From NCBI RefSeq assembly GCF_003576645.1, contig NC_044929.1, forward strand, positions 3,198,184 to 3,262,183: a stretch of DNA of 64,000 nucleotides, in the 5' to 3' direction. Positions 33,819-56,509 of the stretch are shown one piece after another (position 1 is the stretch's first letter; the number at the start of each line of letters is the position of its first letter). The notes beneath the pieces are model-generated. The model did no database searches. It was not told the DNA's origin and saw only the letters and a program-made list of their open reading frames with translations. Source of the stretch: Ipomoea triloba (Eukaryota; Streptophyta; Magnoliopsida; Solanales; Convolvulaceae). The translations under genes and the position numbers were made by a program.

Positions 33819-34279
<461 letters not shown>

Positions 34280-34714
34280 GATAAAGTAATTTTTGAACTA
34301 TATAAATGTAATCTAGTGACCTAAAATGTTATTGTTTCATTTTACCTATCTTATTTACTATTTATTGGTCAAATTATTTTTTGTGTGTTTTCATTATTAT
34401 TTTTTAATTTTAAATTTTTAAAAATATTTAATAGTATTTTTTTACGTAGTTTCTACATATAAATTTTACATACTATTTCTAACTTTAATATTATAAAAAA
34501 CTAAATTGTAAATAACTTTTGCCAGATTCAACTTTGACACATAAAATGAGATGACACGAGTACTATTTTTATAAATTTTAATTTTAATGATGGGGCGGAG
34601 GGAGTACTATTTTATCAACTTTAATGATGCTAAAATACAATGAGAGGTCACAAATTCGACCAGTGAGGACATTGACTCTTTGTACTTCATTAGGTTGAGA
34701 AAGTATTTATGGAT

Positions 34715-35167: not shown

Positions 35168-35284
35168 TTTATGGATAAATATTGCATTATAACAGAGTCA
35201 ATAGCACTGAAAAATCGTGATGGGATGATAATATTAGGGAATAACAGTCTAATATAAGTTATATAAGTCAAGTTAATAGTGTAA

Positions 35285-35400
35285 TTAAGTCCCGCCGGAA
35301 AATAAATGGTCATTTTCTCGCCGGGAAATAAATCCGGCGGTTTTTCCGGCAATTTTTCACCGGAAAAAAAAAAAAAACTATTTTTCGTCAGAAAAAAATT
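35285..35400. other. Small ccgg-rich reiteration
   Basis: Repeats of gccggaaaat/ccggcggtttttccggc words between the MITE and the first gene-fragment array. Origin unknown. Confidence 0.3.
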
Positions 35401-35469
35401 TCATTTTCAAGTAGGATTGAAATGGGAATTTACATTGTTGAAAACAATTCCCCTTTCAAGCAAGAAAAC

Positions 35470-38400
35470 ATCGATTGTCATATTTACCCTAGTTCCCTGG
35501 GGGTTTTACTAAAAAGTAACAATCACTTGATCCGCAATCTGAGGGTGGAAATTTTGAGATTGGGGCACAAGGTGGCGATATGGTGGCTGATCAGCATTGC
35601 GATGGGGTAAATTCTGACACTAGCTGTCTAATAAATATCGATCTCACAAGAAAGATTGACACTAGCTGTCTAATAAATATCGATCTCACAAGAAAGATTT
35701 TTTTTAGCTGTCTAATAAATATCGATCTCACAAGAAAGATTTTTTTTCTCCTTTTCCCTAGTTCCCTGCCGATTTTACTAAAAAATATTAATTTTTTCTC
35801 CTTTTCCCTAGTTCACTCCGGGTTTTACTAAAAAGTTTTCTCCTTTTCCCTAGTTCACTCCGGGTTTTACTAAAAAGTAACAATCACTTTATCTCTAATA
35901 AATACTAATCTCACAAGAAAGATTTTTTTCTCCTTTTCCCTAGTTCCCTGCCGATTTCACTAAAAAATATTGATTTTTTTCTCATTTTCCCTAGTTCCCT
36001 CCCGATTTTACTAGAAAGTAATAATCACTTTATCTCTAATAAATATCGATCACTAGAAAGTAATAATCACTTTATCTCTAATAAATATCGATCGCAGAAT
36101 AAATATTTTTATCTCCTTTTCCCTAGTTCCCTGCAGATTTTACTACAAAATATTGATTTTTTCTCATTTTCCTTAGTTCCCACGGGGTTTTACTAAAAAG
36201 TAACAATCACTTGATCAGCAATCTGAGGGTGGAAATTCAGAGCGAGACTGGGGCACAAGGTGGCGATATGGTGGCTGATCAGCATTGCGATGGGGTAAAT
36301 TCTGACACTAGCTGTCTAATAAATATCGATCTCACAAGAAAGATTTTTTTTCTCCTTTTCCCTAGTTCCCTGCCGATTTTACTAAAAAATATTAATTTTT
36401 TCTCCTTTTCCCTAGTTCACTCCGGGTTTTACTAAAAAGTAACAATCACTTTATCTCTAATAAATACTAATCTCACAAGAAAGATTTTTTTTCCTTTTCC
36501 CTAGTTCCCTGCCGATTTCACTAAAAAATATTGATTTTTTTCTCATTTTCCCTAGTTCCCTCCCGATTTTACTAGAAAGTAATAATCACTTTATCTCTAA
36601 TAAATATCGATCGCAGAATAAATATTTTTATCTCCTTTTCCCTAGTTCCCTGCAGATTTTACTACAAAATATTGATTTTTTCTCATTTTCCTTAGTTCCC
36701 ACGGGGTTTTACTAAAAAGTAACAATCACTTGATCAGCAATCTGAGGGTGGAAATTCAGAGCGAGACTGGGGCACAAGGTGGCGATATGGTGGCTGATCA
36801 GCATTGCGATGGGGTAAATTCTGACACTAGCTGTCTAATAAATATCGATCTCACAAGAAAGATTTTTTTTTCTCCTTTTCCCTAGTTCCCTGCCGATTTT
36901 ACTAAAAAATATTAATTTTTTCTCCTTTTCCCTAGTTCACTCCGGGTTTTACTAAAAAGTAACAATCACTTTATCTCTAATAAATACTAATCTCACAAGA
37001 AAGATTTTTTTCTCCTTTTCCCTAGTTCCCTGCCGATTTCACTAAAAAATATTGATTTTTTTCTCATTTTCCCTAGTTCCCTCCCGATTTTACTAGAAAG
37101 TAATAATCACTTTATCTCTAATAAATATCGATCTCAGAAGAAATATTTTTATCTCCTTTTCCCTAGTTCCCTGCAGATTTTACTAAAAAATATTGATTTT
37201 TTCTCATTTTCCTTAGTTCCCACGGGGTTTTACTAAAAAGTAACAATCACTTGATCAGCAATCTAAGGGTGAAAATTCAGAGCGAGACTGGGGCACAAGG
37301 TGGCGATATGGTGGCTGATCAGCATTGCGAAGGGGTAAATTCTGACACTAGCTGTCTAATAAATATCGATCTCACAAGAAAGATTTTTTTCTCCTTTTCC
37401 CTAGTTCCCTGCCGATTTTACTAAAAAATATTGATTTTTTTCTCCTTTTCCCTAGTTTCCTCCGGGTTTTACTAAAAACTAACAATCACTTTATCTCTAA
37501 GAAATATTGATCTCACAAGAAAGATTTTTTTCTCCTTTTCCCTAGTTCCTTGCCGATTTCACTAAAAAATATTGATTTTTTTCTCCTTTTCCCTAGTTTC
37601 CTCCCGGTTTTTTAATAAAAAGTAATAATCACTTTATCTCTAATAAATATTGATCTCACAAGAAAGATTTTTTTCTCCTTTTCCCTAATTCCCTCCCGAT
37701 TTTACTAAAAAATATTGATTTTTTTCTCCTTTTCCCTAGTTCCCTGCCGATTTCACTAAAAAATATTGATTTTTTTCTACTTTTCCCTAGTTCCCTCCCG
37801 GTTTTACTAAAAAGTAATAATCACTTTATCTCTAATAAATATTGATCTCACAAGAAAGATTTTTTTCTCCTTTTCCCTAGTTCACTCCCGATTTTACTAA
37901 AAGATATTGTTTTTTTCTCCTTTTCCCTAGTTCCCTGCCGATTTCACTAAAAAATATTGAATTTTTTCTCCTTTTCCCTAGTTCCCTCCCGGTTTTACTA
38001 AAAAGTAATAATCACTTTATCTCTAATAAATATCTATCTCACAAGAAAGATTTTTTTCTCCTTTCCCTAGTTACCTCCCGATTTTACTAAAAAATATTGA
38101 TTTTTTCTCCTTTTCGCTCGTTCCCTCCGGGTTTTACTAAAAAGTAACAATCACTTTATCTCTAATAAATATCGATCTCACAAGAAAGATTTTTTTTTTC
38201 TCCTTTTCCCTAGTTCCCTGCCGATTTTACTAAAAAATATTGATTTTTTCTCCTTTTCCCTAATTCCCTGCCGATTTTACTAAAAAATATTGATTTTTTC
38301 TCCTTTTCCCTAATTCCCTGCCGATTTTACTAAAAAGTATTGATTTTTTTCTCCTTTTCCCTAGTTCCTTCTCAGTTTTACTAAAAAGTAACAATCACTT

Positions 38401-38500
38401 TATATATCCCTAATAAATATCGATCTCACAAGAACAATTTTTTTCTCCTTTTCCCTAGTTCTCTCCGGGTTTTACTAAAAAGTAACAATCACTTTATGTT
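35470..38500 (+). repeat. SINE-tail array with embedded F-box gene fragments (left array)
   Basis: The monomers are a long form (ccctagttccctcccg, ttttactaaaaagtaacaat, cactttatctctaataaata, tcgatctcacaagaaagat; about 92 bp) and a short form (about 50 bp, with taaaaaatattgattttttc), largely alternating. Four plus-strand pieces of the F-box/kelch coding region are embedded (about 35527-35632, 36212-36320, 36731-36839, 37252-37360). The last three lie in units of about 520 bp. From 37380 on, the array has no gene pieces. The same monomers without gene pieces occur upstream of the parental gene at 23-26.6 kb. Confidence 0.85.
36212..36320 (+). pseudogene. Embedded F-box gene fragment (representative of five plus-strand copies)
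   Basis: About 105 bp corresponding to parental 31103-31219 (codons about 94-131: DQ-S-GVNSETGAQGGDMVADQ-HCDGVNSDTSCL). The left joint is aacaatcactTGATCAGC, the right joint TGTCTAATaaatatcg, where TCTAAT is common to gene and monomer. Like the two truncated gene copies, the fragment lacks the parent's 12 bases aagctggtgatc and has T for C before CTAAT. The other plus-strand copies are at 35527-35632, 36731-36839, 37252-37360 and 39885-39994. The short frames starting here are not genes. Confidence 0.85.
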
Positions 38501-40175
38501 AATGTACATAATAGAATTCCTCTAATGATAATATCCAAAAAAAATTCCAAAAATCAAATTAGTATATGATGTATATTATAGTATTCCAAAAAAATATCAC
38601 TATATTATGTTAATTTATGTAATTAAATTCCTATCATGATAATATTCAAAAAAAATTCCAAAAATCAAATTAGTATATGATGTATATTATAGTATTCCAA
38701 AAAAATATTACTATATTATGTTAATGTATGTAATTAAATTCCTCTCATGATAATATTCAAAAAAAATTCCAACAATCAATTTACTATATGATCTATATTA
38801 TAGTATTAAAAAAATTACTATATTATGTTAATGTGCGTAATTAAATGCTATTCAATTATACGGTTTTGCGTTTGTTTGTTATATATGTATTTATATATTT
38901 ATTAATTTATTTGTTTAAAATTTGAAATCAGTCAACATAATATTACAATATTTAACAAAATTAAATCAGAATACCTTCAATATTTTATTTCCATTTAAAC
39001 AAAATGAAATTATATTTCGGAATTCCCTTGAAATTTGCATATCAATTGAATTCAGTAATTGAGGATTCTTTTTGAATCATCTGATAAAAGTAAACAGGTT
39101 TTAGACAATATTCGATCTTATAACAATATGCATGTATTCTTTCACATCGCTGGGTTGTAAGATTGATTATAGCCAAAACAAAGGTACTTCCCCGCCAATA
39201 TTTAAATTTTTACTTCTTAGAATTATTTCTACTTCTTAGAATTACCAAACTTGAAATGCTTGAGATAGGGGTAGCCTACCTGGAAAAGCTTCCCTAATAA
39301 AATTTTTAACTCAATACAAAAATTGATTTAAAACTAATAAACTCGACAACCCAATGCAACTGGTCTGAAATTGAGTAGACTGGTCTAATTGAAATGCCTA
39401 GGGGTAGGGCTCTGATGCAACGACCACCTCTAAGAGCAATTCCATTTGTAGATTTTAGTGAGTTTTTGTAAAATGTAAAAACTTAGGGATGATTTTTTAC
39501 CAAATGGAGAGTGGGGGTTTTAGATAGTTTTTTTCTCCAGCAATAGATGAATTTTTGTGGGCCTATTTGTGAGAAAAATAGGTGCAAGCAATGCTGTGCG
39601 CTCAAAACGAAGCTTTCCCTTTTGTTTTTTTTTTTGATTTTTTTCTCCTTTTCCCTAGTTCCCTGCCGATTTCACTAAAAAATATTGAATTTTTTTTCTC
39701 CTTTTCCCTAGTTCCCTCCCGGTTTTACCAAAAAGTAACAATCACTTTATCTCTAATAAATATCGATCTAGAAGAAAGATTTTTTTCTCCTTTTCCCTAG
39801 TTCCCTACAGATTTTACTAAAAAATATTGATTTTTTCTCCTTTTCCTTAGTTCCCTCGGGGTTTTACTGAAAAGTAACAATCACTTGATCAGCAATCTGA
39901 GGGTGGAAATTCAGAGCTAGACTGGGGCATAAGGTGGCGATATGGTGGCTGATCAGCATTGCGATGGGGTAAATTCTGACACCAGCTGTCTAATAAATAT
40001 CGATCTCACAATAAAGATTTTTTTCTCCTTTTCCCTAGTTCCCTCCCGATATTATTAAAAAATATTGATTTTTTCTCCATATCCGTAGTTCCCTCAGGAT
40101 TTTACTAAAAAGTAACAATCACTTGATCAGCAATCTGACGGTGGAAATTCTGATACTGGGGCACAAGGTGACGAT

Positions 40176-40914
40176 ATGGTGGCTGATCAGCATTGCGATG
40201 GGGTAAATTCTGACACTAGCTGTCTAATTCCTGGGATTGGTCGAGACAACTCCATTAGCTGTCTCATCCGTTGCTCAAGGTCCGCTTATGGCATGGCAGC
40301 TTCCGTGAACAGGAGCTTTCGTTCGTTAATTAGGAGCGGCGAGCTCTATAAATTAAGACGCATGAATGGTATAATTGAGCACTGGGTTTATTTTTCCTGC
40401 AACATGTTGGAATGGGAAGCGTTCGACCCCAATCTCCGCCGTTGGATGCGTCTCCCAACAATGAATTCTAATGAATGTTTTGTATTCTCTGACAACGAGT
40501 CTTTGGCTGTGGGCACAGAGCTCCTTGTGTTTGGAAAGGAGTACATGGCACAAGTCATCTATCGGTACAGTCTTTTGACCAATTCATGGTCGACCGGAAT
40601 GCAGATGAATGAGCCACGGTGTTTGTTTGGCTCTGCCTGCCAAGGGGAGATTGCTATTGTGGCCGGTGGTTGTGATTTGCAAGGAAAGATCCTTAGCTCA
40701 GCTGAGCTTTACAATTCGGAGACGGGAGAGTGGAAGCTTTTGCCAAGCTTGAACAAGGCCCGGAAAATGTGTTCTGGAGTATTCATGGATGGAAAGTTTT
40801 ATGTAATTGGAGGTATCGGAGGGCCTGAAACAAAGCTTTTGACATCTGGAGAGGAATACAATCTCGAGACGGAGACTTGGACTGAAATACCCAACATGTG
40901 TCTCCCCCGCACAG
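40176..40914 (+). pseudogene. F-box/kelch copy 2, exon 1 (5'-truncated, frame open)
   Basis: Homologous to the parental gene from codon about 94 on. Upstream of that the sequence is repeat array, so residues 1-93 and the promoter are gone. The first usable ATG is 40176 (Met111 of the parent). The F-box, at parental residues 131-176, is complete. Joined to 41304-41665 after removing a GT-AG intron, it gives an uninterrupted 366-residue frame, the length expected from Met111 minus the four residues missing through a 12-bp difference. Substitutions against the parent include Lys to Asn in DKESL, Met to Val before AGG and Ser to Gly at CSAVF. It may be a pseudogene, or a gene if transcribed. Confidence 0.85.
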
Positions 40915-41303
40915 GTGATGTAACGTTTTCCTTTTATTATTATTATTGGGATTATTATCAATAATAATAAATTAAGTATTTTATGTGGTACAAATTACTA
41001 TTTAGGCTGACTAAGTACTAGTCTTTGGTCATAATCGGTTACCTATATTGATGGGATGTAGGACTATAGATAGACCCTTAGTCCTCTCACTTCTCAGTTC
41101 ACGCAATACACCATCTAAATTACTGAGCAAGTGAGAGAAACAAGTGGGAGAAACAATTCTGGTGACTCCACAAGCAGCCCTGGGAGCCTCTTCTAAACGT
41201 GCGGTCACAACAACCAAAGTATTATAAATTATGACGAGAGGTTAGTAGATCTGTTTTTTAATTACCACATATTAACTGTTCAATGTGGTCTACATGCTTA
41301 CAG
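40915..41303 (+). other. Intron-like insert in copy 2 between 8-bp direct repeats
   Basis: The parental sequence ccccgcACAGGTGAaactagg is here interrupted: ACAGGTGA stands at 40911-40918 and 41300-41307, with 381 bp between. Using the AG|GT inside each repeat, the donor is GTGATG (40915) and the acceptor CTTACAG (ends 41303), giving a 389-bp phase-1 intron whose removal restores the parental codon. Without splicing the frame shifts. A homologous 370-bp insert lies at the same codon in copy 3. I see no terminal inverted repeats. Confidence 0.8.
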
Positions 41304-41665
41304 GTGAAACTAGGGAAAACGCCTTGCCTACTACATCTGAAGCACCTCCGTTGATTGCAGTTGTAAATGACCAATTTTATGCTGCCGATTATGCTGAAAT
41401 GGTGGTAAGGAAGTATGACAAGGATAACAGAGTCTGGTTTACAATTGGGAGATTGCCCGAACGTGCAAATTCTATGAATGGCTGGGGCTTGGCTTTTAGG
41501 GCATGTGGTGATAAGCTCATCGTGATCGGGGGACCTAGGGCTTCAGGTCCAGGGTTTATCGAAGTGAACTCGCGGGTGTCTAGTGAAGGGCCACCCGAGT
41601 GGCATTTACTAGGCCGAAAGCAATCGGGTAGCTTTGTCTATAATTGCGCCGTGATGGGTTGCTAA
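41304..41665 (+). pseudogene. F-box/kelch copy 2, exon 2
   Basis: Encodes the last kelch blades and the C-terminus (to FVYNCAVMGC and TAA), in frame with exon 1 after splicing. Differences from the parent include Gly to Glu in TRGNALP, Leu to Phe in DQLYAAD and Trp to Arg in VNSWVPS (the tryptophan is normally conserved). Homology with the parental 3' flank stops at 41681, where the copia fragment begins. Confidence 0.85.
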
Positions 41666-41681
41666 AAATGTGGTTCTTTGG

Positions 41682-42302
41682 GAACTAGGTTTTCTGAAGA
41701 TAAATCAGAAAAAAGTTTTTGGTTGTATAGCCAATGCTTTGGTAAAATCATCTCGTCATAAACTTGAAGATAAATCAGAAAAATGTATTTTTCTTGGTTA
41801 TAGTTTGCAATCCAAAGCTTATAGGTTGTATAATCCAATAAGTGGCAAGATCATTATAAGTCGAGATGTGTTGTTTAATGAGTCTGCTAGTTGGTCTTGG
41901 AGTTCTGACAAAACAGGGAAAATGGTTCCTTTTATTGATGTTAGAGAAGTCTCTACTGTAATTCCAGGTGGAACAACCCCCTTGCCACATGAAGATAGTA
42001 GCAACTCACCAGACAACAAATCTACTCCGCCAACAAGCCCACAACCCAGCACCACCACCACTTTTTCACCAGAAAGTACACCAGAATCCCGACAGAGGTT
42101 CCGTTCACTAAGAGATATTTATGAAACAACAAATTTTGCTCTCTCAGTGTCGGATCCTATTTTCTATGATGATGCTGCTCGAGAACAAATATGGCGGGAT
42201 GCAATGATAGAAGAAATGAATTGCATACAGAAGAAGTACACATGGAAGTTAGTTGATCTTCCGGAAGGAAAAAAAGCAATTGGGTTGAAATGGGTGTTCC
42301 GT
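41682..42302 (+). mobile_element. Ty1/copia pol fragment (late integrase to start of reverse transcriptase)
   Basis: One frame without stops for about 200 codons. It holds the end of the integrase region (VFGCIANALV, then KCIFLGYSLQSKAYRLYNP and KIIISRDVLFNE), a Pro/Ser/Thr-rich linker, then the start of reverse transcriptase (a W-DAM-EEMN-I segment, a TWKLVDLP-GKKAIG segment and LKWVFR). It lacks LTRs, gag, protease, the integrase catalytic core and most of RT. The left end joins copy 2's 3' flank and the right end (ttccgtaac) joins copy 3's. Near the left end gaagataaatcagaaaaa occurs twice (about 41696 and 41768). It sits exactly at the palindrome centre. Confidence 0.85.
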
Positions 42303-42741
42303 AACTCAGGCCCAAGTTTAGCCAACTAATGTCCACCTAAGACTAAAATCCCCTCGGCTTAGGGACGCCTAGACAGATTCTTATAACAGTGAGTGATACA
42401 ATCATAGTTATGCATTCACCAAATATAGAATCAATACCATCTAGCAAAAACCTAAGCCAACGTAAGTTGCACTGTAGAATTGATTTCTGATTCATGGACT
42501 TGGCTAATAAAGCATAACGAAATAGAATACCTGGAAAAGGAAAGATACAGGATAGCATTCACTACATCACAAACTAAATGATACTTTCCTTTTTCAAACT
42601 ATACGCCCAATTATGATTTACAAATATAGATCATGCCAATATGCCACTAATTCACTGAATAAAAAAGAAAATAAAGGTTTGGGATATAGATTACCCATTA
42701 GAAAGACACTCCTCCATGGCAGCACCCAAAGAACCACGTTT
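42303..42741 (-). other. 3' flank of copy 3
   Basis: Reverse complement of parental 32268-32360 joined to about 32968-33330, including the start of the ctaggcg-family repeat. It shows that copy 3 was copied as genomic DNA, not from mRNA. Confidence 0.8.
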
Positions 42742-43103
42742 TTAGCAACCCATCACAGCGCAATTACAGACAAAGCTTCCCGATTGCCTTCGGCCTAGTA
42801 AATGCCACTCGGGTGGCCCTTCACTTGGCACCCACGAGTTCACTTCGATAAACCCTGGACCTGAAGCCCTAGGTCCCCCGATCACGATGAGCTTATCACC
42901 ACATGCCCTAAAAGCCAAGCCCCAACCGTTCATGGAATTTGCACGTTCGGGCAATCTTCCAATCGTAAACCAAACTCTGTTATCCTTGTCATACTTCTTT
43001 ACCACCATTTCAGCATAATCAACAGCATACAATTGGTCATTTACAACTGCAATCAATGGAGGTGCTTCAGATGTAGTAGGCAAGGCATTACCCCTAGTTT
43101 CAC
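42742..43103 (-). pseudogene. F-box/kelch copy 3, exon 2
   Basis: Reads on the minus strand from 43103 to the stop at 42742. C-terminal kelch part ending VCNCAVMGC. Changes against the parent include Ala to Val in YAADYA, Arg to Lys in VVRKY, Lys to Arg in GRKQS and Tyr to Cys near the end. It keeps the Trp that copy 2 lost. Confidence 0.85.
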
Positions 43104-43473
43104 CTGTAAGCATGCAGACCACATTGAACAGTGAATATGTGGTAATTAAAAAACAGATCTACTAATCTCCCGCCATAATTTATAATACTTTGGTTGTTGT
43201 GGCCGATAGAAGAGGCTCCCAGAGTTGCTTGTGGAGTCACCAGAATTTTTTCTCTCACTTGCGTCAGTAATTTAGATGGTGTATTGCCTGAACTGAGTTG
43301 AGAGGACTAGGGGGTCTATCTATAGTCCTACATCTAATAGGTAACAGACTACCTATTACTGACCAAAAACTAGTACTTAGTCAGCCTAAATAGTTTGCAC
43401 CACATAAAATACTTAATTTATTATTATTGATAATAATCTCAATAATAATAACAAAAGGAAAACGTTACAACAC
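43104..43473 (-). other. Intron-like insert in copy 3
   Basis: The same insertion as in copy 2, inverted, 370 bp. Read on the minus strand the donor is ACAG|GTGTTG (one base of the 8-bp repeat changed) and the acceptor CTTACAG. It lies at the identical codon and phase, so it was present before the inverted duplication. Confidence 0.8.
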
Positions 43474-44212
43474 CTGTGCGGGGGGGACACATGTTGGGTA
43501 TTTCAGTCAAAGTCTCCGTCTTGAGATTGTACTCCTCTCCAGATGTCAAAAGCTTTGTTTCAGGCCCTCCGATACCTCCAATTACATAAAACTTACCGTC
43601 CATGAATACTCCAGAACACATTTTCCGGGCCTTGTTTAAGCTTGGCAAAAGCTTCCACTCTCCCGTCTCCGAATTGTATAGCTCAGCTGAGCTAAGGATC
43701 TTTCCTTGCAAGTCACAACCACCGGCCACAATAGCAATCTCCCCTTGGCAGGCAGAGCCAAACAAACACCGTGGCTCGTTCATCTGCATTCCGGTCGACC
43801 ATGAATTGGTCAAAAGGCTGTACCGATAGATGAGTTGAGCCATGTAATCCTTTCCAAACACAAGGAGCTCTGTGCCCACTGCCAAAGACTCCTTGTCAGA
43901 AAATACAAAGCATTCATTAGAATTCATTGTTGGGAGACGCATCCAACGGCGGAGATTGGGGTCGAACGCTTCCCATTCCAACATGTTGCAGGATAAATAA
44001 ACCCAGTGCTCAATTATACCATTCATGCGTCTTAATTTATAGAGCTCGCCGCTCCTAATTAACGAACGAAAGCTCCTGTTCACGGAAGCTGCCATGCCAT
44101 AAGCGGACCTTGAGCAACGGATGAGACAGCTAATGGAGTTGTCTCGACTAATCCCGGGAATTAGACAGCTAGTGTCAGAATTTACCCCATCGCAATGCTG
44201 ATCAGCCACCAT
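43474..44212 (-). pseudogene. F-box/kelch copy 3, exon 1 (5'-truncated, frame open)
   Basis: Starts at the ATG complementary to 44212-44210 (Met111 of the parent) and, joined to 43103-42742, gives 366 codons without a stop. The F-box is present. It differs from copy 2 by several residues (GISRDNS, VYLSC, KDYMAQL, LKTETLTE), so the two have diverged independently. Upstream on the minus strand is monomer array; no promoter of the parent remains. Copies 2 and 3 face each other with their 3' ends about 1.1 kb apart, so read-through from either would pair with the other. Confidence 0.85.
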
Positions 44213-44548
44213 ATGGCCACCTTGTGCCCCAGTATCAGAATTTCCACCGTTAGATTGCTGATCAAGTGATTGTTACTTTTTAGTAAAACTCCGAGGGAAC
44301 TAGGGAAATGTAGAAAAAATCAATATTTTTTAGTAAAATCGGGATGGAACTAGGGAAAAGGAGAAAAAAAATCTTTCTTGTGAGATCGATATTTATTAGA
44401 GATAAAGTGATTGTTATTTTTTAGTAAAACAGGGAGGGAACTAGGGAAAATGGAGAAAAAAATCAATATTTTTTAGTAAAATCCCCAGGGAACTAGGGAA
44501 AAGGAGAAAAAAATCAATACTTTTTTACCCCTTGTGAGATCGATATTT

Positions 44549-44655
44549 ATTAGACAGCTAGTGTCAGAATTTACCCCTTCGCAATGCTGATCAGCCACCA
44601 TATCGCCACCTTGTGCCCAAGTCTCAGAATTTACACCTTCAGATTGCTGATCAAG
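44549..44655 (-). pseudogene. Embedded F-box gene fragment
   Basis: Minus-strand counterpart of the plus-strand fragments, between monomers upstream of copy 3; mirror of the one at 39885-39994. It has the same joints (TCTAAT microhomology and cacttgatcagc). Confidence 0.8.
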
Positions 44656-45770
44656 TGATTGTTACTTTTCAGTAAAACCCCGAGGGAGCTAGGGAAAAGG
44701 AGAAAAAATCAATATTTTTTAGTAAAGTCCGCAGGGAACTAGGGAAAAGGAGAAAAAAATCAATATTTTTTTAGTAAAATTCACAGGGAACTAGGGAAAA
44801 GGAGAAAAAAATCAAAAAAAAAAAAGGAAAGCTTCGTTTTGAGCGCACAACATTGCTTGCCCCTATTTTTCTCACAAATAGGCCCCACAAAAATTCATCT
44901 CTTGCAGGAGAAAAAAACTATCTAAAACCCCACTCTCCATTTGTTAAAAAATCATCCCTAAGTTTTTACATTTTACAAAAACTCCCTAAAATCTACAAAT
45001 GGAATTGCTCTTAGAGGTGGCCGTTGCATCAGAGCCCTACCCCTAGGCATTTCAGTTAGACCAGTCTACTCAATTTCAGACCAGTTGCATTGGGTTGTCG
45101 AGCTTATTAGTTTTAAATCAATTCTTTTTATTGAGCTAAAAATTTTATTAGGGTAACTTTTTTAGGTAGGCTACCCCTATCTCAAACATTTGAGGTTAGG
45201 TAATTCTAAGTAGAAGTAATTCTAAGAAGTAAAAATTTAAATATTGGTGGGGAAGTGCCTTTGTTTTGGCTATAATCAATCACGCAACCCATCGATGTGA
45301 AAGAAAACATGTATATTGTTGTAAGATCGAATATTGTCTAAAAACTGTTAACTTTTATCAGTGATTCAAAAAGAATCCTCAATTACTGAATTCAATTGAT
45401 ATGCAAATTTCAAGGGAATTCCGAAATATAAATTCATTTTGTTTAAATGGAAATAAAATATTGAAGGTAATACGATTTAATTTTGTTAAATATTGTAATA
45501 TTATGTTGATTGATTACAAATTTTTGATACATATTGTAATATTTTTTTGGAATACTATAATATACATCTTATACTAATTTCATTTTTGGAATTTTTTTTG
45601 AATATTATCATGAGAGGAATTTAATTACATACATTAACATAATATAGTAATTTTTTTGGAATACTATAATATACATCATATACAAATTTGATTTTTGAAA
45701 TTTTTTTGGATATTATCATGAGAGGAATTCTATTACGTACATTAACATAAAGTGATTGTTACTTTTTAGT

Positions 45771-46399
45771 AAAACCCGGAGGGAACTAGGGTAAAGGAGA
45801 AAAAAAATCTTTCTTGTGACATCGATATTTATTAGGGATATATAAAGTGATTTTTACTTTTTAGTAAAACCGGGAGGGAACTAGGAAAAAGGAGAAAAAA
45901 ATCAATATTTTTAGTAAAATCGGCATGGAACAAGGGAAAAGGAGAAAAAAATCTTTCTTGTGAGATTGATATTTATTAGAGATAAATTGATTGTTACTTT
46001 TTAGTAAAACCTGGAGGGAACTAGGGAAAAGGAGAAAAAATTAATATTTTTTAGTAAAATCGGGAGGGAACTAAGGAAAAGGAGAAAAAAATATTTCTTG
46101 TGAGATCGATATTTATTAGAGATAAAGTGATTATTACTTTTTAGTAAAACGGGGATGGAACAAGGGAAAAGGACGAAAAAATTAATTTTTTTAGTGAAAT
46201 CGGCAGGGAACAAGGGAAAAGGAGAAAAAAATCTTTCTTGTGAGACCAATATTTATTAGAGATAAAGTGATTTGTTACTTTTTAATAAAACCCGAAGGGA
46301 ACTAGAGAAAAGGAGAAAAAAAATCAATACTTTTTTAGTAAAATCGGCAGGAACTATGGAAAAGGAGAAAAAAAAATCTTTCTTGTGAGATCGATATTT
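45771..46399 (-). repeat. SINE-tail monomer array without gene pieces
   Basis: Monomers as in the left array, read on the minus strand (ttactttttagtaaaacc, ggagggaactagggaaaagg, tgagatcgatatttattaga on the plus strand). Mirror of 37.4-38.5 kb. Confidence 0.8.
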
Positions 46400-47365
46400 A
46401 TTAGACAGCTAGTGTCAGAATTTACCTCATCGCAGTGCTGATCAGCCATCAAATCGCCACCTTGTGCCCCAGTCCCTGAATTTCCACCCTCAGATTGCTG
46501 ATCAAGTGATTGTAACTTTTTAGTAAAACCCCGAGGGAACTAGGGAAAAGGAGAAAAAATCAATATGGGTTTAATCATTCTTTGAATATTTTGTTAATAT
46601 TTGAACATAAATAAGGAATGATAAGGAAGGACATTATTTACAACTTGCCGTATTCCTCAATTACTGAATTCAATTGATATGCAAATTTCAAGGGAATTCC
46701 GAAATAAAAATTCATTTTGTTTAAATGGAAATAAAATATTGAAGATACTACGATTTAATTTTGTTAAATATTGTAACATTATGTTGACTGATTTCAAATT
46801 TTTAAACAAATAAATTATTAAATATATAAATACATATATAACAAACAAACGCACAACCGTATAATTGAATAGCACATATATAACAAACAAACGCACAACC
46901 GTATAATTGAATAGCATTTAATTAACAAACAAACGCACAACCGTATAATTGAATAGCATTTAATTACGCGCATTAACGTAATATAGTAATTTATTTAATA
47001 CTATAATATACATCATATAGTAATTTGATTGTTGGAATTTTTATTGAATATTATCATGAGAGGAATTTAATTACATACATTAACAAAATATAGTAATATT
47101 TTTTTGGAATACTATAATATACATCATATACTAATTTGATTTTTTGAATTTTTTTTGAATATTATCATGAGAGAAATTTAATTACATACATTAAAATAAT
47201 ATAGTAATTTTTTTTTGGAATACTATAATATACATCATATACTAATTTGATTTTTGAAATTTTTTTCGATATTATCACGAGAGGAATTCTATTACGTACA
47301 TTAACATATAGTGATTGTTACTTTTTAATAAAACCCGGAGGGAACTAGAGAAAAGGAGAAAAAAA

Positions 47366-47366
47366 N
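47366..47366. other. Ambiguous base N in the satellite
   Basis: The only N in the window. The same approximately 40-bp stretch (ttaataaaacccggaggg and following) lies on both sides of it. This may mark an assembly join or a collapsed repeat. Confidence 0.9.
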
Positions 47367-48441
47367 TTAATAAAACCCGGAGGGAACTAGAGAAAAGGAG
47401 AAAAAAATAAATATTTTTTTAGTAAAATCGGCATGGAACTAGGGAAAAGGAGAAAAAAATCTTTCTTGTGAGATCGATATTTAATAGACAGCTAGTGTCA
47501 GAATTTACCTCTTCGCAGTGCTAATCAACCATCATATCGCCACCTTGTGCGCCAGTCTCTGAATTTCCACCCTCAGATTGCTGATCAAGTGATTGTTACT
47601 CTTTAGTAAAACCCCGAGGGAACTAGGGAAAGGAGAAAAAATCAATATGGGTTTAATCATTCTTTGAATATTTTGTTAATATTTGAACATAAATAAGGAA
47701 TGATAAAGAAGGGCATTATTTACAACTTTCCGTATTCCTCAATTACTGAATTCAATTGATATGCAAATTTCAAGGGAATTCCGAAATATAATATCATTTT
47801 GTTTAAATGGAAAAAAAATATTGAAGGTACTACGATTTAATTTTGTTAAATATTATAATATTATGTTAACTGATTTCAAATTTTTAAACAAATAAATTAT
47901 TAAATATATAAATACATATATAACAAACAAACGCTCAACCGTATAATTGAATAGCATTTAATTACTCACATTAACATAATATAGTAATTTATTTAATACT
48001 ATAATATACATCATATAGTAATTTGATTGTTGGAATTTATTTTGAATATTATCATGAGTGGAATTTAATTACATACATTAACATAATATAGTAATATTTT
48101 TTTGGAATACTATAATATACATCATATACTAATTTGAATTTTGGAATTTTTTTTGAATATTATCATGAGAGGAATTTAATTACATACATTAACATAATAT
48201 AGTAATATTTTTTTGAAATACTATAATATACATCATATACTAATTTGATTTTTGGAATTTTTTTGGATATTATCACGAGAGGATTTCTATTACGTACATT
48301 AACATATAGTGATTGTTACTTTTTAATAAAACCCGGAGGGAACTACAGAAAAGGAGAAAAAAATCCATATTTTTTTAGTAAAATTGGCAGGGAACTAGGG
48401 AAAAGGAGAAAAAAAAATCATTCTTGTGATACCGATATTTA

Positions 48442-48547
48442 TTAGACAGCTAGTGTCAGAGTTTACCCCATCGCAGTGCTGATCAGCCATCATATCGCCA
48501 CCTTGTGCCCCAGTCTCTGAATTTCCGCCCTCAGATTGCTGATCAAG
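48442..48547 (-). pseudogene. F-box gene fragment inside satellite (representative of ten)
   Basis: The same codon 94-131 segment as the plus-strand pieces, inverted. Other copies: about 46400-46506, 47483-47590, 49401-49505, 50358-50464, 51400-51505, 52528-52634, 53488-53594, 54448-54550 and 55528-55634. Copies differ by point changes (for example in tcagccatcatatcgccac) and small indels. Adjacent units often share changes, as expected of unequal exchange. Confidence 0.85.
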
Positions 48548-51500
48548 TGATTGTTACTTTTTAGTAAAACCCCGAGGGAACTAGGGAAAAGGAGAAAAAA
48601 TCAATATGGGTTTAATCATTCTTTGAATATTTTGTTAATATTTGAACATAAATAAGGAATGATAAGGAAGGACATTATTTACAACTTGCCGTATTCCTCA
48701 ATTACTGAATTCAATTGATATGCAAATTTCAAGGGAATTCCGAAATATAATTTCATTTTGTTTAAATGGAAATAAAATATTGAAAGTACTACGATTTAAT
48801 TTTGTTAAATATTACAATATTATGTTGACTGATTTCAAATTTTTAAACAAATATATTATTAAATATATAAATACATATATAACAAACAAATGCACAACCG
48901 TATAAATTAATAGCATTTAATTACGCACATTAACATAATATAGTAATTTATTTAATATTATAATATACATCATATAATAATTTGATTGTTGAAATTTTTT
49001 TTGAACATTATCATGAGTGGAATTTAATTACATACATTAACATAATATAATAATATTTTTTTGGAATACTATAATATACATCATATACTAATTTGAATTT
49101 TGGATTTTTTTTTGAATATTGTCATGAGAGAAATTTAATTACATACATTAACACAATATAGTAAATTATTTTTGAAATACTATAATATACATCATATACT
49201 AATTTGATTTTTGGAATTTTTTTTGATATTATCATGAGAGGAATTCTATTACGTACAATAACATATAGTGATTGTTACTTTTTAATAAAACCTGGAGGGA
49301 ACTAGAGAAAAGCAGAAAAAAATCAATATTTTTTTAGTAAAACCGGTAGGGAACTAGGGAAAAGGAGAAAAAAAAATCTTTCTTGTGAGATCGATATTTA
49401 TTATACAGCCAGTGTCAGAATTTACCCATCGCAGTGCTGATCAACCATCATATCGCCACCTTGTGCCCCAGTCTCTGAATTTCCACCCTCAGATTGCTGA
49501 TCAAGTGATTGTTACTTTTTAGTAAAATCCCGAGGTAACTAGGGAAAAGGAGAAAAAATCAATATGGGTTTAATCATTCTTTGAATATTTTGTTAATATT
49601 TGAACATAAATAAGGAATGATAAGGAAGGACATTATTTACAACTTGCCGTATTCCTCAATTACTGAATTCAATTGATATGCAAATTTCAATGGAATTCCG
49701 AAATATAATTTCATTTTGTTTAAATGGAAATAAAATGTTGAAAGTACTACGATTTAATTTTGTAAAATATTATAATATTATGTTGACTGATTTCAAATTT
49801 TTAAACAAATATATTATTAAATATATAAATACATATATAACAAACAAACGCACAACCGTATAATTGAATAGCATTTAATTACGCACATTAACATAATATA
49901 GTAATTTATTTAATACTATAATATACATCATATAGTAATTTGATTGTTGGAATTTTTTTTGAATATTATCATGAGTGGAATTTAATTATATACATTAACA
50001 TAATACAGTAATATTTTTTTGGAATACTATAATATACATCATATACTAATTTGAATTTTGGAATTTTTTTTGAATATTATCATGAGAGGAATTTAATTAA
50101 ATACATTAACATAATATAGTAATATTTTTTTGAAATACTATAATATACATCATATACTAATTTGATTTTTGGAATTTTTTTGGATATTATCACGAGAGGA
50201 ATTCTGTTACGTACATTAACATATAGTGATTGTTACTGTTTAATAAAACCCGGAGGGAACTAGACAAAAAGAGAAAAAAAATCCATATTTTTTTAGTAAA
50301 ATCGGCAGGGAACTAAGGAAAAGGAGAAAAAAATCATTCTTGTGATATCGATATTTATTAGACAGCTAGTGTCAGAATTTACCCCATCGCAGTGCTGATC
50401 AACCATCGTATCGCCACCTTGTGCCCCAATCTCTGAATTTCCACCCTCAGATTGCTGATCAAGTGATTGTTACTTTTTAGTAAAACCCTGAGGGAACTAG
50501 GGAAAGGAGAAAAAATCAATATGGGTTTAATCATTCTTTGAATATTTTGTTAATATTTGAACATAAATAAGGAATGATAAGGATGAACATTATTTACAGC
50601 TTGCCGTAATCCTCAATTACTGAATTCAATTGATATGCAAATTTCAAGGGAATTCCGAAATATAATTTCATTTTGTTTAAATGGAAATAAAATATTGAAG
50701 GTACTACGATTTAATTTTGTTAAATATTATAATATTATGTTGACTGATTTCAAATTTTTAAACAAATAAATTATTAAATATATAAAAACATATATAACAA
50801 ACAAACGCACAACCGTATAATTGAATAGCATTTAATTATGCACATTAACATAATATAGTAATTTATTTAATACTATAATATACATCATATAGTTATTTGA
50901 TTGTTGGAATTTTTTTTGAATATTATCATAAGTAGAATTTAATTACATACATTAACATAATACAGTAATATTTTTTTGGAATACTATAATATACATCATA
51001 TACTAATTTGAATTTTGGAATTTTTTTGAATATTATCATGAGAGAAATTTAATTACATACATTAACATAATATAGTAATATATTTTTGAAATACTATAAT
51101 ATACATCATATACTAATTTGATTTTTGGAATTTTTTTTGATATTATCACGAGAGGAATTCTATTACGTACATTAACATATAGTGATTGTTACTTTTTAAT
51201 AAAACCCGGAGGGAACTAGAGAAAAGGAGAAAAAATTTTAATAAAACCCGGAGGGAACTAGAGAAAAGGAGAAAAAAATTTAATAAAACCCGGAGGGAAC
51301 TAGAGAAAAGGAGAAAAAAAATCCATATTTTTTTTAGTAAAATCGGCAGGGAACTAGGGAAAAGGAGAAAAAAAATCATTCTTGTGATATCGATATTTAT
51401 TAGACAGCTAGTGTCAGAATTTACCTCTTCGCAGTGCTGATCAACCGTCATATCGCCACCTTGTGCGCCAGTCTCTGAATTTCCACCCTCAGATTGCTGA

Positions 51501-54500
51501 TCAAGTGATTGTTACTTTTTAGTAAAACCCCGAGGGAACTAGGGAAATGGAGAAAAAATCAATATGGGTTTAATCATTCTTTGAATATTTTGTTAATATT
51601 TGAACATAAATAAGGAATGATAAGAAAGGACATTATTTACAGCTTGCCGTATTCCTCAATTACTGAATTCAATTGATATGCAAATTTCAAGGGAATTCCG
51701 AAATATAATTTCATTTTGTTTAAATGGAAATAAAATATTTAAGGTACTACGATTTAATTTTGTTAAGTATTGTAATATTATGTTGACTGATTTCAAATTT
51801 TTAAACAAATAAATTATTAAATATATAAATACATATATAACAAACAAACGCACAACCGTATAATTGAATAGCATTTAATTATGCACATTAACATAATATA
51901 GTAATTTATTTAATACTATAATATATACATCAAATAGTAATTTGATATTTGGAATTTTTTTTGAATATTATCATGAGTGCAATTTAATTACATACATTAA
52001 CATAATACAGTAATATTTTTTTGGAATACTATAATATACATCATATACTAATTTGAATTTTGGAATTTTTTGTGAATATTATCATGAGAGAAATTTAATT
52101 ACATACATTAACATAATATAGTAATATTTTTTTGAAATACTATAATATACATCATATACTAATTTGATTTTTGGAATTTTTTTGGATAATACATCATATA
52201 CTAATTTGATTTTTGGAATTTTTTTGGATATTATCACGAGAACTAATTTGATTTTTGGAATTTTTTTGGATATTATCACGAGAGGAAATTTGATTTTTGG
52301 AATTTTTTTGGATATTATCACGAGAGGAATTCTGATTTTTGGAATTTTTTTGGATATTATCACGAGAGGAATTCTATTACGTACATTAACATATAGTGAT
52401 TGTTACTTTTTAATAAAACCCGGAGGGAACTAGAGAAAAGGAGAAAAAAATCCATATTTTTTTAGAAAAATCGGCAGGGAACTAGGGAAAAGGAGAAAAA
52501 AAATCATTCTTGTGATATCGATATTTATTAGACAGCTAATGTCAGAATTTACCTCTTCGCAGTGCTGATCAACCGTCATATCGCCACCTTGTGCGCCAGT
52601 CTCTGAATTTCCACCCTCAGATTGCTGATCAAGTGATTGTTACTTTTTAGTAAAACCCCGAGGGAACTAGGGAAATGGAGAAAAAATCAATATGGGTTTA
52701 ATCATTCTTTGAATATTTTGTTAATATTTGAACATAAATAAGGAATGATAAGAAAGGACATTATTTACAGCTTGCCGTATTCCTCAATTACTGAATTCAA
52801 TTGATATGCAAATTTCAAGGGAATTCCGAAATATAATTTCATTTTGTTTAAATGGAAATAAAATATTGAAGGTACTACGATTTAATTTTGTTAAATATTA
52901 TAATATTATGTTGACTGATTTCAAATTTTTAAACAAATAAATTATTAAATATATAAATACATATATAACAAACAAACGCACAACCGTATAATTGAATAGC
53001 ATTTAATTATGCACATTAACATAATATAGTAATTTATTTAATACTATAATATACATCATATAGTAATTTGATTGTTGGAATTTTTTTTGAATATTATCAT
53101 GAGTGGAATTTAATTACATACATTAACATAATACAGTAATATTTTTTTGGAATACTATAATATACATCATATACTAATTTGAATTTTGGAATTTTTTTTG
53201 AATATTATCATGAGAGAAATTTAATTACATACATTAACATAATATAGTAATATTTTTTTGAAATACTATAATATACATCATATACTAATTTGATTTTTGG
53301 AATTTTTTTGGATATTATCACGAGAGGAATTCTATTACGTACATTAACATATAGTGATTGTTACTTTTTAATAAAACCCGGAGGGAACTAGAGAAAAGGA
53401 GAAAAAAATCCATATTTTTTTAGAAAAATCGGCAGGGAACTAGGGAAAAGGAGAAAAAAAATCATTCTTGTGATATCGATATTTATTAGACAGCTAATGT
53501 CAGAATTTACCTCTTCGCAGTGCTGATCAACCGTCATATCGCCACCTTGTGCGCCAGTCTCTGAATTTCCACCCTCAGATTGCTGATCAAGTGATTGTTA
53601 CTTTTTAGTAAAACCCCGAGGAACTAGGGAAATGGAGAAAAAATCAATATGGGTTTAATCATTCTTTGAATATTTTGTTAATATTTGAACATAAATTAGG
53701 AATGATAAGAAAGGACATTATTTACAGCTTGCCGTATTCCTCAATTACTGAATTCAATTGATATGCAAATTTCAAGGGAATTCTGAAATATAATTTCATT
53801 TTGTGTCAATGGAAATAAAATATTGAAAGTACTACAAGTTAATTTTGTTAAATATTATAATATTATGTTGACTGATTTCAAATTTTTAAACAAATAAATT
53901 ATTAAATATATAAATACATATACAACAAACAAATGCACAACCGTATAATTGAATAGCATTTAATTACGCACATTAACATAATATAGTAATTTATTTAATA
54001 CTATAATATACATCATATAGTAATTTGATTGTTGAATTTTTTTTTGAACATTATCATGAGTGGAATTTAATTACATACATTAACATAATATAGTAATATT
54101 TTTTTTGAATACTATAATATACATCATATACTAATTTAAATTTTGGAATTTTTTTTGAATATTATCATGAAAGGAATTTAATTACATACATTAACATAAT
54201 ATAGTAATATTTTTTTAAAATACTATAATATACATCATATACTAATTTGATTTTTGGAATTTTTTTTGATATTATCATGAAAGGAATTCTATTACGTACA
54301 TTAAATTAAAGTGATTGTTACTTTTTAATAAAACCTGGAGGGAACTAGAGAAAAGGAGAAAAAAAATCAATATTTTTTTAGTAAAACCGGTAGGGAACTA
54401 GGGAAAAGGAGAAAAAAAAACTTTCTTGTGAGATCGATATTTATTATACAGCCAGTGTCAGAATTTAACCCATGTCAGTGCTGATCAGCCATCATATCGC

Positions 54501-56188
54501 CACCTTGTGCCCCAGTCTCAGAATTTCCACCCTCAGATTGCTGATCAAGTGATTGTTACTTTTTAGTAAAACCCCGAGGGAACTAGGGAAAGGAGAAAAA
54601 ATCAATATGGGTTTAATCATTCTTTGAATATTTTGTTAATATTTGAACATAAATAAGGAATGATAAGGAAGGGCATTATTTACAACTTGCCGTATTCCTC
54701 AATTACTGAATTCAATTGATATGCAAATTTCAAGGGAATTCCGAAATATAATTTCATTTTGTTTAAATGGAAAAAAAATATTGAAGGTACTACGATTTAA
54801 TTTTGTTAAATATTATAATATTATGTTGACTGATTTCAAATTTTTAAACAAATAAATTATTAAATATATAACTGATTTCAAATTTTTAAACAAATAAATT
54901 ATTAAATATATAAATGATTTCAAATTTTTAAACAAATAAATTATTAAATATATAAATACATATATAACAAACAAACGCACAATTATTAAATATATAAATA
55001 CATATATAACAAACAAACGCACAACCGTATAATGGAATAGCATTTAATTATGCACATTAACATAATATAGTAATTTATTTAATACTATAATATACATCAT
55101 ATAGTAATTTGATTGTTGGAATTTTTTTTTGAATATTATCATGAGTAGAATTTAATTACATACATTAACATAATACAGTAATATTTTTTTGGAATACTAT
55201 AATATACATCATATACTAATTTGAATTTTGGAATTTTTTTTGAATATTATCATGAGAGAAATTTAATTACATACATTAACATAATATAGTAATATTATTT
55301 TGAAATACTATAATATACATCATATACTAATTTGATTTTTGGAATTTTTTTGGATATTATCACGAGAGGAATTCTGTTACGTACATTAACATATAGTGAT
55401 TGTTACTTTTTAATAAAACCCGGAGGGAACTACAGAAAAGGAGAAAAAAATTCATATTTTTTTAGTAAAATCGGCAGGGAACTAGGGAAAAGGAGAAAAA
55501 AAATCATTCTTGTGATATCGATATTTATTAGACAGCTAGTGTCAGAATTTACCACTTCGTAGTGCTTATCAACCATCATATCGCCACCTTGTGCGCCAGT
55601 CTCTGAATTTCCACCCTCAAATTGCTGATCAAGTGATTGTTACTTTTTAGTAAAACCCCGAGGGAACTAGGGAAATGGAGAAAAAATCAATATGGGTTTA
55701 ATCATTCTTTGAATATTTTGTTAATATTTGAACATAAATAAGGAATGATAAGAAAGGACATTATTTACAGCTTGCCGTATTCCTCAATTACTGAATTCAA
55801 TTGATATGCAAATTTCAAGGGAATTCTGAAATATAAGTTCATTTTGTTTAAATGGAAATAAAATATTGAAGGTACTACGATTTAATTTTGTTAAATATTA
55901 TAATATTATGTTGACTGATTTCAAATTTTTAAACAAATAAATTATTAAATATATAAATACATATATAACAAACAAACGCACAATCGTATAATTGAATAGC
56001 ATTTAAATACGCACATTAACATAATATAGTAATTTATTTAATACTATAATATACATCATATAGTAATTTGATTGTTGGAATTTTTTTTGAATATTATCAT
56101 GAGTGGAATTTAATTACATACATTAACATAATATAGTAATATTTTTTTGGAATACAATAATATACATCATATACTAGAGCAATTATAT

Positions 56189-56474
56189 GTTGATAAAGAA
56201 AATTTTACCTATAAAGTTATATTGAACTATGGAAAATTTTGCAATTATTTGAGATCAATGTTTTCTGTAAAGTTATACCTTTTGCTTTGCAAGTTGTACT
56301 CTTCTCTCTATGTACTGCTTATATAGAATATAAGGTATAACTTTACAAAGCATATTCATTATAACTTAGCATTGTATTATCAGTAATTATATTATCACTA
56401 ATTTATGTTTATTGAATATAATAATTTAAAAAATGCTATTAGTTTATATTTGTATTAAATATATTACCATATAC

Positions 56475-56485
<11 letters not shown>
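56189..56485 (+). repeat. Right copy of the 300-bp direct repeat
   Basis: Counterpart of 33819-34132 (parental gene 3' flank), same orientation, joined on its left to the truncated last satellite unit and on its right to a CATA/TA microsatellite. Confidence 0.8.

Positions 56486-56509
<24 letters not shown>

Follow-up and report, generated by a model that had tools for sequence, protein, structure and literature searches.

A protein-coding piece of an F-box/kelch gene forms part of a tandem repeat in the window (the whole 64,000-nucleotide stretch of Ipomoea triloba DNA that was analysed), as an earlier note had claimed. The chimera is genuine and tidy but local. It derives from the truncated gene copies at 40.1 and 44.3 kb rather than from the intact copy at 30.8 kb, and its copies probably go back to one chimeric repeat that formed by a short tandem duplication at the edge of a truncated gene and was then copied repeatedly.

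Gene copies and the palindrome

The gene copies and the elements associated with them are as follows.

30825..32267, + strand: gene 1, an intact F-box/kelch-repeat (SKIP11 / At1g26930-like) coding sequence, from its ORF, homolog names and Pfam
31103..31219, + strand: stretch of gene 1 matching the repeated fragment, codons ~93-132, with CCTAAT at the right joint
40018..44370, no strand: palindrome core, two arm pairs (96% and 94%)
40122..41682, + strand: copy 2, 5'-truncated, beginning at the left joint CACTT/GATCAGC and interrupted by a 384-bp LTR
40919..41302, + strand: likely solo LTR in the copy 2 exon, 384 bp, TGTAA...TTACA, flanked by GGTGA direct repeats
41683..42303, + strand: piece of a copia-type polyprotein at the palindrome axis, SH3_retrovirus above the cut-off and RVT_2 below it
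42725..44266, − strand: copy 3, inverted and truncated, with the left joint and LTR insertion of copy 2
43105..43469, − strand: counterpart in copy 3 of the copy 2 LTR, 86% identical across the insert, one flank GGTGT

The gene 1 ORF begins at 30804 in the ORF list; the start given here is its first ATG, from which a product of 480 amino acids is read without a coding intron. Its homologs bear the names F-box/kelch-repeat SKIP11 and At1g26930-like, and Pfam reported Kelch families, with no F-box domain in the output for this gene. The homology of copy 3 to the 3' flank of gene 1 extends, with a gap, to 42304. Since copy 3 thus includes about 370 bp of this flank, retrotransposition is not favoured as the origin of copies 2 and 3.

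The insert in copies 2 and 3 fits a solo LTR: it has TG...CA ends, a 5-bp target duplication (GGTGA) flanks it in copy 2, and full elements probably occur elsewhere. The LTR ends were read at seven of ten loci, the other three having been dropped by a strand filter; four of the six loci besides copy 2 show TTTGGTATCAG beyond the identical 3' end, a putative primer-binding site. The LTR edges in copy 3 were placed by hand from the alignment, and those of the copia piece are the points at which gene homology stops.

The palindrome arms are 96% identical over 40018-40997/43391-44370 and 94% identical over 41202-41682/42725-43205, with similarity extending outward from the core to about 38.5 and 45.75 kb. 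Outside the exons the arms differ by K 0.080-0.107. Between gene 1 and the two truncated copies, and between these two, the exons diverge by only 0.041-0.046, whereas copies 2 and 3 differ more in their LTR and flanks; gene conversion among the three could have blurred the ordering of events.

Chimeric fragments and their joints

The fragments in the window besides the three gene copies are as follows.

35526..35632, + strand: chimeric fragment
36210..36320, + strand: chimeric fragment, 4-bp insertion GAGC
36729..36839, + strand: chimeric fragment, 4-bp insertion GAGC
37250..37360, + strand: chimeric fragment, 4-bp insertion GAGC
39884..39994, + strand: chimeric fragment adjoining copy 2, 4-bp insertion GAGC
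44549..44655, − strand: chimeric fragment adjoining copy 3
46400..46506, − strand: chimeric fragment at which the 960-bp array starts
47485..47589, − strand: chimeric fragment
48441..48547, − strand: chimeric fragment
49400..49505, − strand: chimeric fragment
50357..50463, − strand: chimeric fragment
51399..51505, − strand: chimeric fragment
52527..52633, − strand: chimeric fragment
53485..53591, − strand: chimeric fragment
54443..54549, − strand: chimeric fragment
55527..55633, − strand: chimeric fragment

A BLAST search of the copy 2 edge against the window recovered all 16 fragments where the earlier note had placed them, five on the plus and 11 on the minus strand, all far beyond chance (worst E = 2e-34). 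A whole-genome DNA search returned this same locus only. It added two copies about 21 kb beyond the array (C14:3275069-3275175 and 3275395-3275501) and found no fragment on any other contig (21 of 21 candidates scored), the 21 matches all lying inside 46 kb of one contig. The 18 fragments in all are 103-108 bp long and span one 42-kb stretch.

The left joint CACTT/GATCAGC is common, within a base, to all 18 fragments. Its monomer side reads TAACAATCACTT in 17 of them, with one base changed in the remaining one, and its gene side GATCAGCAATCT in 16, with one base changed in the rest. The right joint reads AGCTGTCTAATAAATAT in 13 of the 18 and is one or two bases off in four; in fragment 76992, at the window equivalent of 76.9 kb, an A-run follows TCTAATAAA.

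A 12-bp deletion typical of the truncated lineage is present in 18/18 fragments and in both truncated copies and is absent from gene 1. At alignment columns 54, 97 and 160 every fragment likewise matches both truncated copies and not gene 1, and the truncated-copy state is found in 17/18 fragments at column 63 and in 16/18 at column 65, where fragment 44655 agrees with gene 1. The proposal that TCTAAT is shared by gene and monomer at the right joint holds for copies 2 and 3; gene 1 reads CCTAAT there. The 12-bp deletion and this difference rule out the intact gene as origin; the fragments come from the truncated lineage. Independent insertions are ruled out by the joints and markers common to the copies, in agreement with the earlier suggestion, and, as the left joint is also that of the truncated copies, the 18 fragments are likely to be copies of one chimeric repeat. 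Column 79 (T in both truncated copies; G in gene 1 and all fragments) and column 60 (G in 17/18 fragments; C in all three genes) make it likely that the fragments split from the truncated copy before copies 2 and 3 separated.

Other changes are specific to an arm: GAGC is inserted in four of five plus fragments and none of 13 minus fragments, and C at column 130 occurs in 11 of 13 minus and none of five plus fragments. Each arm has a fragment immediately upstream of its gene copy and on the same strand as that copy (39884 ahead of 40122; 44655 ahead of 44266). In a tree of the 104-bp fragments none of 16 branches is well supported, and the genes are placed within the chimeras, not outside them.

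By inspection, the gene frame over the fragment is open in only 11 of 18 copies, is shifted by GAGC in four and by a 1-bp deletion in one, and contains a stop in two. A coding role of the chimeras is therefore not supported, and the fragment is most likely carried along passively, presumably without function. A different reading sees a living gene here: the LTR, lying at AG/GT, would be spliced as a new intron, copies 2 and 3 would keep an open frame under constraint, the left-arm chimeras would be intronic sequence of a hybrid gene, and hairpin RNA from the palindrome would feed back on that gene. A public protein (P0001) does have its N-terminus as in gene 1 and its C-terminus as in copy 2, and an inverted repeat is present, which in a hairpin small-RNA locus would be transcribed and give siRNAs; this reading is nevertheless considered improbable.

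Repeat units and the assembly

The arrays are as follows.

35711..38387, + strand: left-arm monomer array, ~51-bp subunits and 140-bp repeats
45763..46405, − strand: right-arm monomer array
46507..55633, − strand: nine 960-bp units with one fragment each, 957-960 bp without 42-bp duplications

The proposed unit size of about 960 bp holds after a correction. Five of the nine complete units measure 958 bp and the others 1042, 1083, 1084 and 1128 bp; the extra length coincides with 42-bp tandem duplications, and subtracting 42 bp for each internal duplication listed (our own arithmetic) brings all nine to 957-960 bp. There are 30 such near-exact duplications, most of them in unrelated sequence and one of them with an N in the duplicated stretch, whereas no other period between 20 and 129 bp has more than three. 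They likely mark assembly errors and explain the odd unit lengths, and call for caution in measuring repeat units in this assembly. PMC6214957 describes the assembly of this species pair as built from Illumina scaffolds whose gaps were filled with thin PacBio coverage, and this, with the dense 42-bp duplications, makes both the number and the order of the array copies uncertain. The same two observations would also fit a pattern that is largely an artefact, in which short reads from a small number of repeats were wrongly strung together as arrays. However, private and arm-specific changes among the fragments mean that several distinct copies exist, and the left joint is common to far longer truncated copies, so that an artefact on this scale is quite improbable.

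Divergence is 0.008-0.067 (mean 0.041) among the 960-bp units and 0.006-0.014 among the three 520-bp units. An order of 520 bp first and 960 bp later is thus contradicted, the 960-bp units being more diverged, unless conversion homogenised the 520-bp units; since the two arrays lie in opposite palindrome arms, they are likely to be independent. The nine similar units do form a head-to-tail array, as in a satellite. The term nevertheless overstates the scale: satellites are long, of high copy number and often at several loci, and only 18 fragments were found, in one stretch at one locus, which may be under-assembled.

Positions 113-795 of the 960-bp unit correspond to a dispersed element that has copies on numerous contigs (39 of 441 candidates scored). 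Transposable elements commonly capture gene fragments in plants, and a MULE, Helitron or CACTA element could in principle have brought the fragment into the array, as the dispersed part of the unit might suggest. The genome search, however, found the fragment at this locus only, which rules out capture by this dispersed element; the fragment sits in monomer sequence outside the element, neither joint shows a target-site duplication, and element copies elsewhere are as a rule without trace of the fragment. Capture by a transposon is accordingly very improbable.

The description of the monomer as a SINE tail is weakly founded. Three heads judged by eye to be tRNA-like adjoin the monomer (~23.6, 25.0 and 26.6 kb); ARAGORN found no tRNA gene in the window. 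All five dispersed heads fetched, of at least 23 off the locus, run into another body (40 of 221 candidates scored), and the monomer query, in a genome search that ignores very common words, matches only C14:3221417-3275788 (50 matches; 17 of 17 candidates scored). Judged by these heads and matches, the monomer is not a tail that dispersed SINEs share.

Proposed origin

The positions, joints, shared markers and divergences on which the following scheme draws are direct observations. In step 1 a segment of the gene that starts near codon 94 and includes the 3' flank would have been duplicated and joined to the local monomer array with a 1-bp overlap. In step 2 CCTAAT would have become TCTAAT in that truncated copy, with the 12-bp deletion and other marker changes, the direction of all these changes being a presumed one. 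In step 3 recombination via the 6-bp TCTAAT match, presumably tandem duplication or unequal exchange, would have placed a gene stub of 105 bp within the array, at a distance of one or two monomers upstream from the truncated gene. In step 4 a solo LTR would have entered the exon of the gene copy, the relative order of steps 1, 2 and 4 being a presumed one. Step 5 would be inverted copying of the block around the copia fragment, and in step 6 the arms would have amplified separately, into ~958-bp units on the right, which also took in the dispersed repeat element, and more recent ~520-bp units on the left.

Among 200,000 gene/monomer breakpoint pairs drawn at random, 0.16% show a match of at least 6 bp. 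What had been called insertion at one point stands as to the common joints and reads better as a probable tandem-duplication junction. The joint-bearing monomers are a distinct variant, with no 8-mer common to 19 joint-bearing and 18 plain monomers (the former pattern-matched at 17 fragments and two gene copies; fragment 47589 was missed). The sequence to the left of the chimera is 90.2% similar to that separating chimera and gene. Because an arbitrary monomer stretch is nearly as alike (88.1%), a tandem duplication leaves no extra trace.

Alternatively, a second truncated copy could have stood upstream of copy 2 and been reduced to its first 105 bp by a deletion from TCTAAT to TCTAAT. Both joints and the 6-bp match would come out identical, and the order and strand of the gene would be retained, but this route requires an extra gene copy with monomers past it, and BLAST of gene 1 and its flanks over a 124-kb region matches only the 105-bp stretch at each chimera. 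Such a deletion is unlikely, though of the alternatives it deserves the most weight.

If tandem duplication at the edge of the truncated gene is right, a coding piece can join a tandem repeat when the edge of an array recombines in an ordinary way, without a mobile element as carrier. The likely intermediates of repeat birth survive next to one another (intact gene, truncated copy, single chimera, inverted block and two arm-specific arrays), and the order of events is therefore testable in sweetpotato relatives.

Comparison with known systems

Stellate and Su(Ste) are tandem arrays that bear genes, with units of gene length. They resemble the present locus in holding gene-derived sequence inside a tandem array; here, by contrast, about 105 bp of linker coding sequence lies in a mostly non-genic unit. 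Titles and abstract openings among the matches listed, from which subscription journals are mostly absent, contain no gene- or exon-derived satellite, and those on repeats of this species contain none either.

Transposons (SINE, LINE, Helitron, MITE and LTR) are described as sources of satellite and minisatellite DNA (PMC6947457). As in those cases, non-satellite sequence has entered a tandem unit and been amplified locally, and the 960-bp unit contains a dispersed element; the component here is instead a piece of protein-coding exon, a source that the available parts of that paper do not name. PMC12758807 deals with gene pieces retrotransposed onto fish B chromosomes. In the 'high-speed rail' model (PMC8831618), SRS*N + unit + SRS*N structures, whose units have short repeats in varying number between them, amplify in tandem by unequal sister-chromatid exchange. 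Monomers similarly lie on both sides of each gene fragment here, but the units are composite and include a gene stub. The ~96% identical inverted pieces beside their parent gene recall the inverted gene duplications reported as sources of small-RNA loci (PMC3237417), and could, judging from their arrangement, give rise to hairpin RNA; in comparison with those loci, the arms here are 2.4 kb apart.

Distribution of the fragment

The coding fragment of the F-box/kelch gene is a real part of a tandem repeat, and the case is tidy and lies at one locus. The window corresponds to C14:3198184-3262183. A search of the genome (461,989,178 bases, 17 contigs) with one fragment gave 21 matches, with 21 of 21 candidates scored: the intact gene (gene 1), its truncated copies 2 and 3, the 16 fragments (five plus, 11 minus), which were found where the earlier note had placed them, and two extra fragments outside the window. 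Within the reach of this search the fragment belongs to a single locus, with 18 fragments inside ∼42 kb, or ∼46 kb when gene 1 is included. It likely entered the repeat by recombination at the truncated gene's edge. The case is modest in scale and there is no sign of a function for the fragment.

30825-32267, gene 1, intact F-box/kelch-repeat gene, SKIP11 / At1g26930-like, 480 aa
40122-41682, copy 2, truncated
44266-42725, copy 3, truncated, inverted
40018-40997/43391-44370, palindrome arms, 96%
41202-41682/42725-43205, palindrome arms, 94%
C14:3275069-3275175 (window-equivalent 76886-76992), extra fragment outside the window, from the genome search
C14:3275395-3275501 (window-equivalent 77212-77318), extra fragment outside the window, from the genome search

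Just beyond the window, a stray array piece (C14:3275065-3275904, locus L020) carries two chimeras of fragment and monomer, one of which terminates in TCTAATAAA followed by a run of A's; a 490-bp tandem array (window-equivalent 78.3-86.7 kb) adjoins this piece.

Gene copies and palindrome

Pfam reports Kelch families, and no F-box, in the gene 1 protein. Copies 2 and 3 are without the first ∼93 codons and begin exactly at the array edge, where ...AATCACTT passes directly into GATCAGCAATCT...; the exons of both share 94-96% identity with gene 1, and homology to the 3'-flank of gene 1 is additionally present in copy 3. The two copies form a palindrome whose centre is a copia-type fragment, with SH3_retrovirus above and RVT_2 below the cut-off, and the similarity of the arms outside the genes reaches ∼38.5 kb and ∼45.75 kb. 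The left arm holds arrays of the monomer (the local tandem repeat) with four fragments spaced 684, 519 and 521 bp and one more adjoining copy 2; the right arm holds a single fragment adjoining copy 3 and then the 960-bp array. A direct repeat (33816-34164 and 56186-56509, 80% identical), each copy of which enters an AT run, flanks the entire fragment locus, and an 88-bp repeat present six times (56607-57139, 99% matches) lies immediately beside the array.

Origin of the chimera

In an alignment of the 18 fragments, the three gene copies and one monomer, a 12-bp deletion that marks the truncated copies and is absent from gene 1 is present in 18 of 18 fragments, as are the truncated-copy states (versus gene 1) at columns 54, 97 and 160; column 63 shows the truncated-copy state in 17 of 18 fragments and column 65 in 16 of 18. 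The occurrence of these markers in the fragments indicates that the chimera derives from the truncated gene lineage. Column 160 is the CCTAAT/TCTAAT difference, TCTAAT being common to the monomer at the right joint. Both truncated copies, but 0/18 fragments, have T at column 79, and G at column 60 occurs in 17/18 fragments and no gene copy, suggesting that the chimera likely arose before the two truncated copies separated. The presence of a fragment beside the gene copy in both arms agrees with this order. A tree built from the 104 bp supports none of its branches and places the gene rows among the chimeras.

Compared with the plain monomer (CACTTTATCTCTAATAAATA), the chimera has a few bases swapped out between CACTT and TCTAAT, and no target duplication is present. 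Since the truncated gene's edge already provided the left joint, one tandem duplication, from the TCTAAT of the monomer to that of the gene, would suffice to produce both joints. The observed 6-bp match exceeds expectation, matches of at least 6 bp occurring in 0.16% of 200,000 random breakpoint pairs. The main rival to this tandem duplication is that a second gene copy underwent an internal deletion. The two segments flanking the chimera are 90.2% alike, against 88.1% for an arbitrary monomer stretch, so their likeness does not tell for or against the duplication. The monomer immediately left of the joint is a separate variant: the joint-bearing monomers (n = 19, from two gene copies and 17 fragments, fragment 47589 being missed by the pattern used) have no 8-mer in common with 18 plain monomers.

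About 23596-23669, minus strand, tRNA-like head, ∼75 bp, dispersed over many contigs

A 441-bp monomer query, in a search that skips very common words, gave 50 matches, all within C14:3221417-3275788 (17/17 candidates scored). Among the best 40 of 221 candidates for a query containing the tRNA-like head, the head was found at at least 23 off-locus places and the monomer part at this locus only, and each of the five off-locus heads fetched continues into a different body. On these grounds the earlier term SINE tail describes a local junction; as far as seen, the monomer does not form the tail of that dispersed head family.

Amplification and assembly quality

Between copies 2 and 3 with their surroundings, the divergence K is 0.041 in the exons, 0.080 in the monomer flank, 0.090 in the LTR and 0.107 in the distal part. 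Pairwise K is 0.008-0.067 (mean 0.041) among nine 960-bp units and 0.006-0.014 among three 520-bp units. Because its units diverge less, the 520-bp array is the younger one unless conversion has homogenised it, which is opposite to the earlier proposal that the 520-bp units came first. A GAGC insertion occurs in 4/5 plus and 0/13 minus fragments and C at column 130 in 11/13 minus and 0/5 plus fragments, pointing to largely separate histories. Positions 113-795 of the 960-bp unit belong to a dispersed element, which contains 111-bp repeats and is present on many contigs (best 39 of 441 candidates scored).

The 124-kb region formed by the window and neighbouring sequence contains 30 tandem duplications of period 42 bp, each 83-87 bp long (at least 41 consecutive matching bases); among the remaining periods between 20 and 129 bp, simple repeats dropped, none reaches more than three. 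The 30 are partly non-independent, as eight lie in four identical 191-bp copies (25.2-26.0 kb) and some are neighbours within one run; the duplicated sequences are mostly unrelated to one another.

20713, 25256, 35615, 35794, 36010, 46832, 47325, 51194, 52147, 54829, examples of 42-bp duplications

With 42 bp removed per duplication, the nine units, assembled at 958, 1042, 1083, 1084 or 1128 bp, all measure 957-960 bp, and the first unit of the left arm shrinks from 684 to 516 bp. For I. triloba, the published method (PMC6214957) consisted of Illumina scaffolding by SOAPdenovo2 and GapCloser, then gap filling with 5x PacBio data, and BioNano maps. Given this method and the evening of the units, the variation in unit length is likely an artefact, the 42-bp duplications probably reflecting faulty gap closing that distorts the lengths of the repeat units, and the array copy number is uncertain. 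The duplications do not account for the joints, which recur carrying distinct private mutations. The four 191-bp copies (25202-25968, 100% matches), each with 42-bp duplications, are possibly a further assembly error.

Insert and coding state of the truncated copies

40919-41302, insert (likely solo LTR) in the copy 2 exon, 384 bp, TGTAA...TTACA ends, GGTGA on both sides
43105-43469, same insert in the copy 3 exon, shorter, one flank GGTGT

Relatives of the insert occur on many contigs (best 40 of 73 candidates scored). Its ends were read at seven of ten insert loci, and four of the six besides copy 2 show TTTGGTATCAG, which we take to be a primer-binding-like sequence, after the same end; the insert in copies 2 and 3 is likely a solo LTR. 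Because the target duplication sits on AG/GT, GT...CAG splicing would excise the insert exactly. It thus looks like a newborn intron, with the GT from the target duplication and the acceptor from the CA of the LTR plus G. The alignment of gene 1 runs through the insert site uninterrupted, and so do those of the best paralogs (C7, 74%; C2, 69%).

Copy-unique synonymous/nonsynonymous codon changes number 18/2 in gene 1, 12/4 in copy 2 and 9/9 in copy 3 (∼239 synonymous and ∼850 nonsynonymous sites), and pairwise dN/dS among the gene copies is 0.07-0.17. As amino-acid changes are few, the truncated copies are possibly constrained or converted by gene 1; the counts suggest that this is weaker in copy 3.

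The public protein P0001, a cluster of 15 sequences whose listed contig and representative sequence could stem from different members, looks like a gene model in which the N-terminus of gene 1 is fused to the C-terminus of copy 2 over the left-arm array (30825-41682); it could reflect an erroneous gene model, an effect of clustering or a genuine hybrid transcript. Its sequence is that of gene 1 as far as about residue 117; marker residues 221, 276, 306, 315 and 357 have the copy 2 state, as does, by inspection, its last part.
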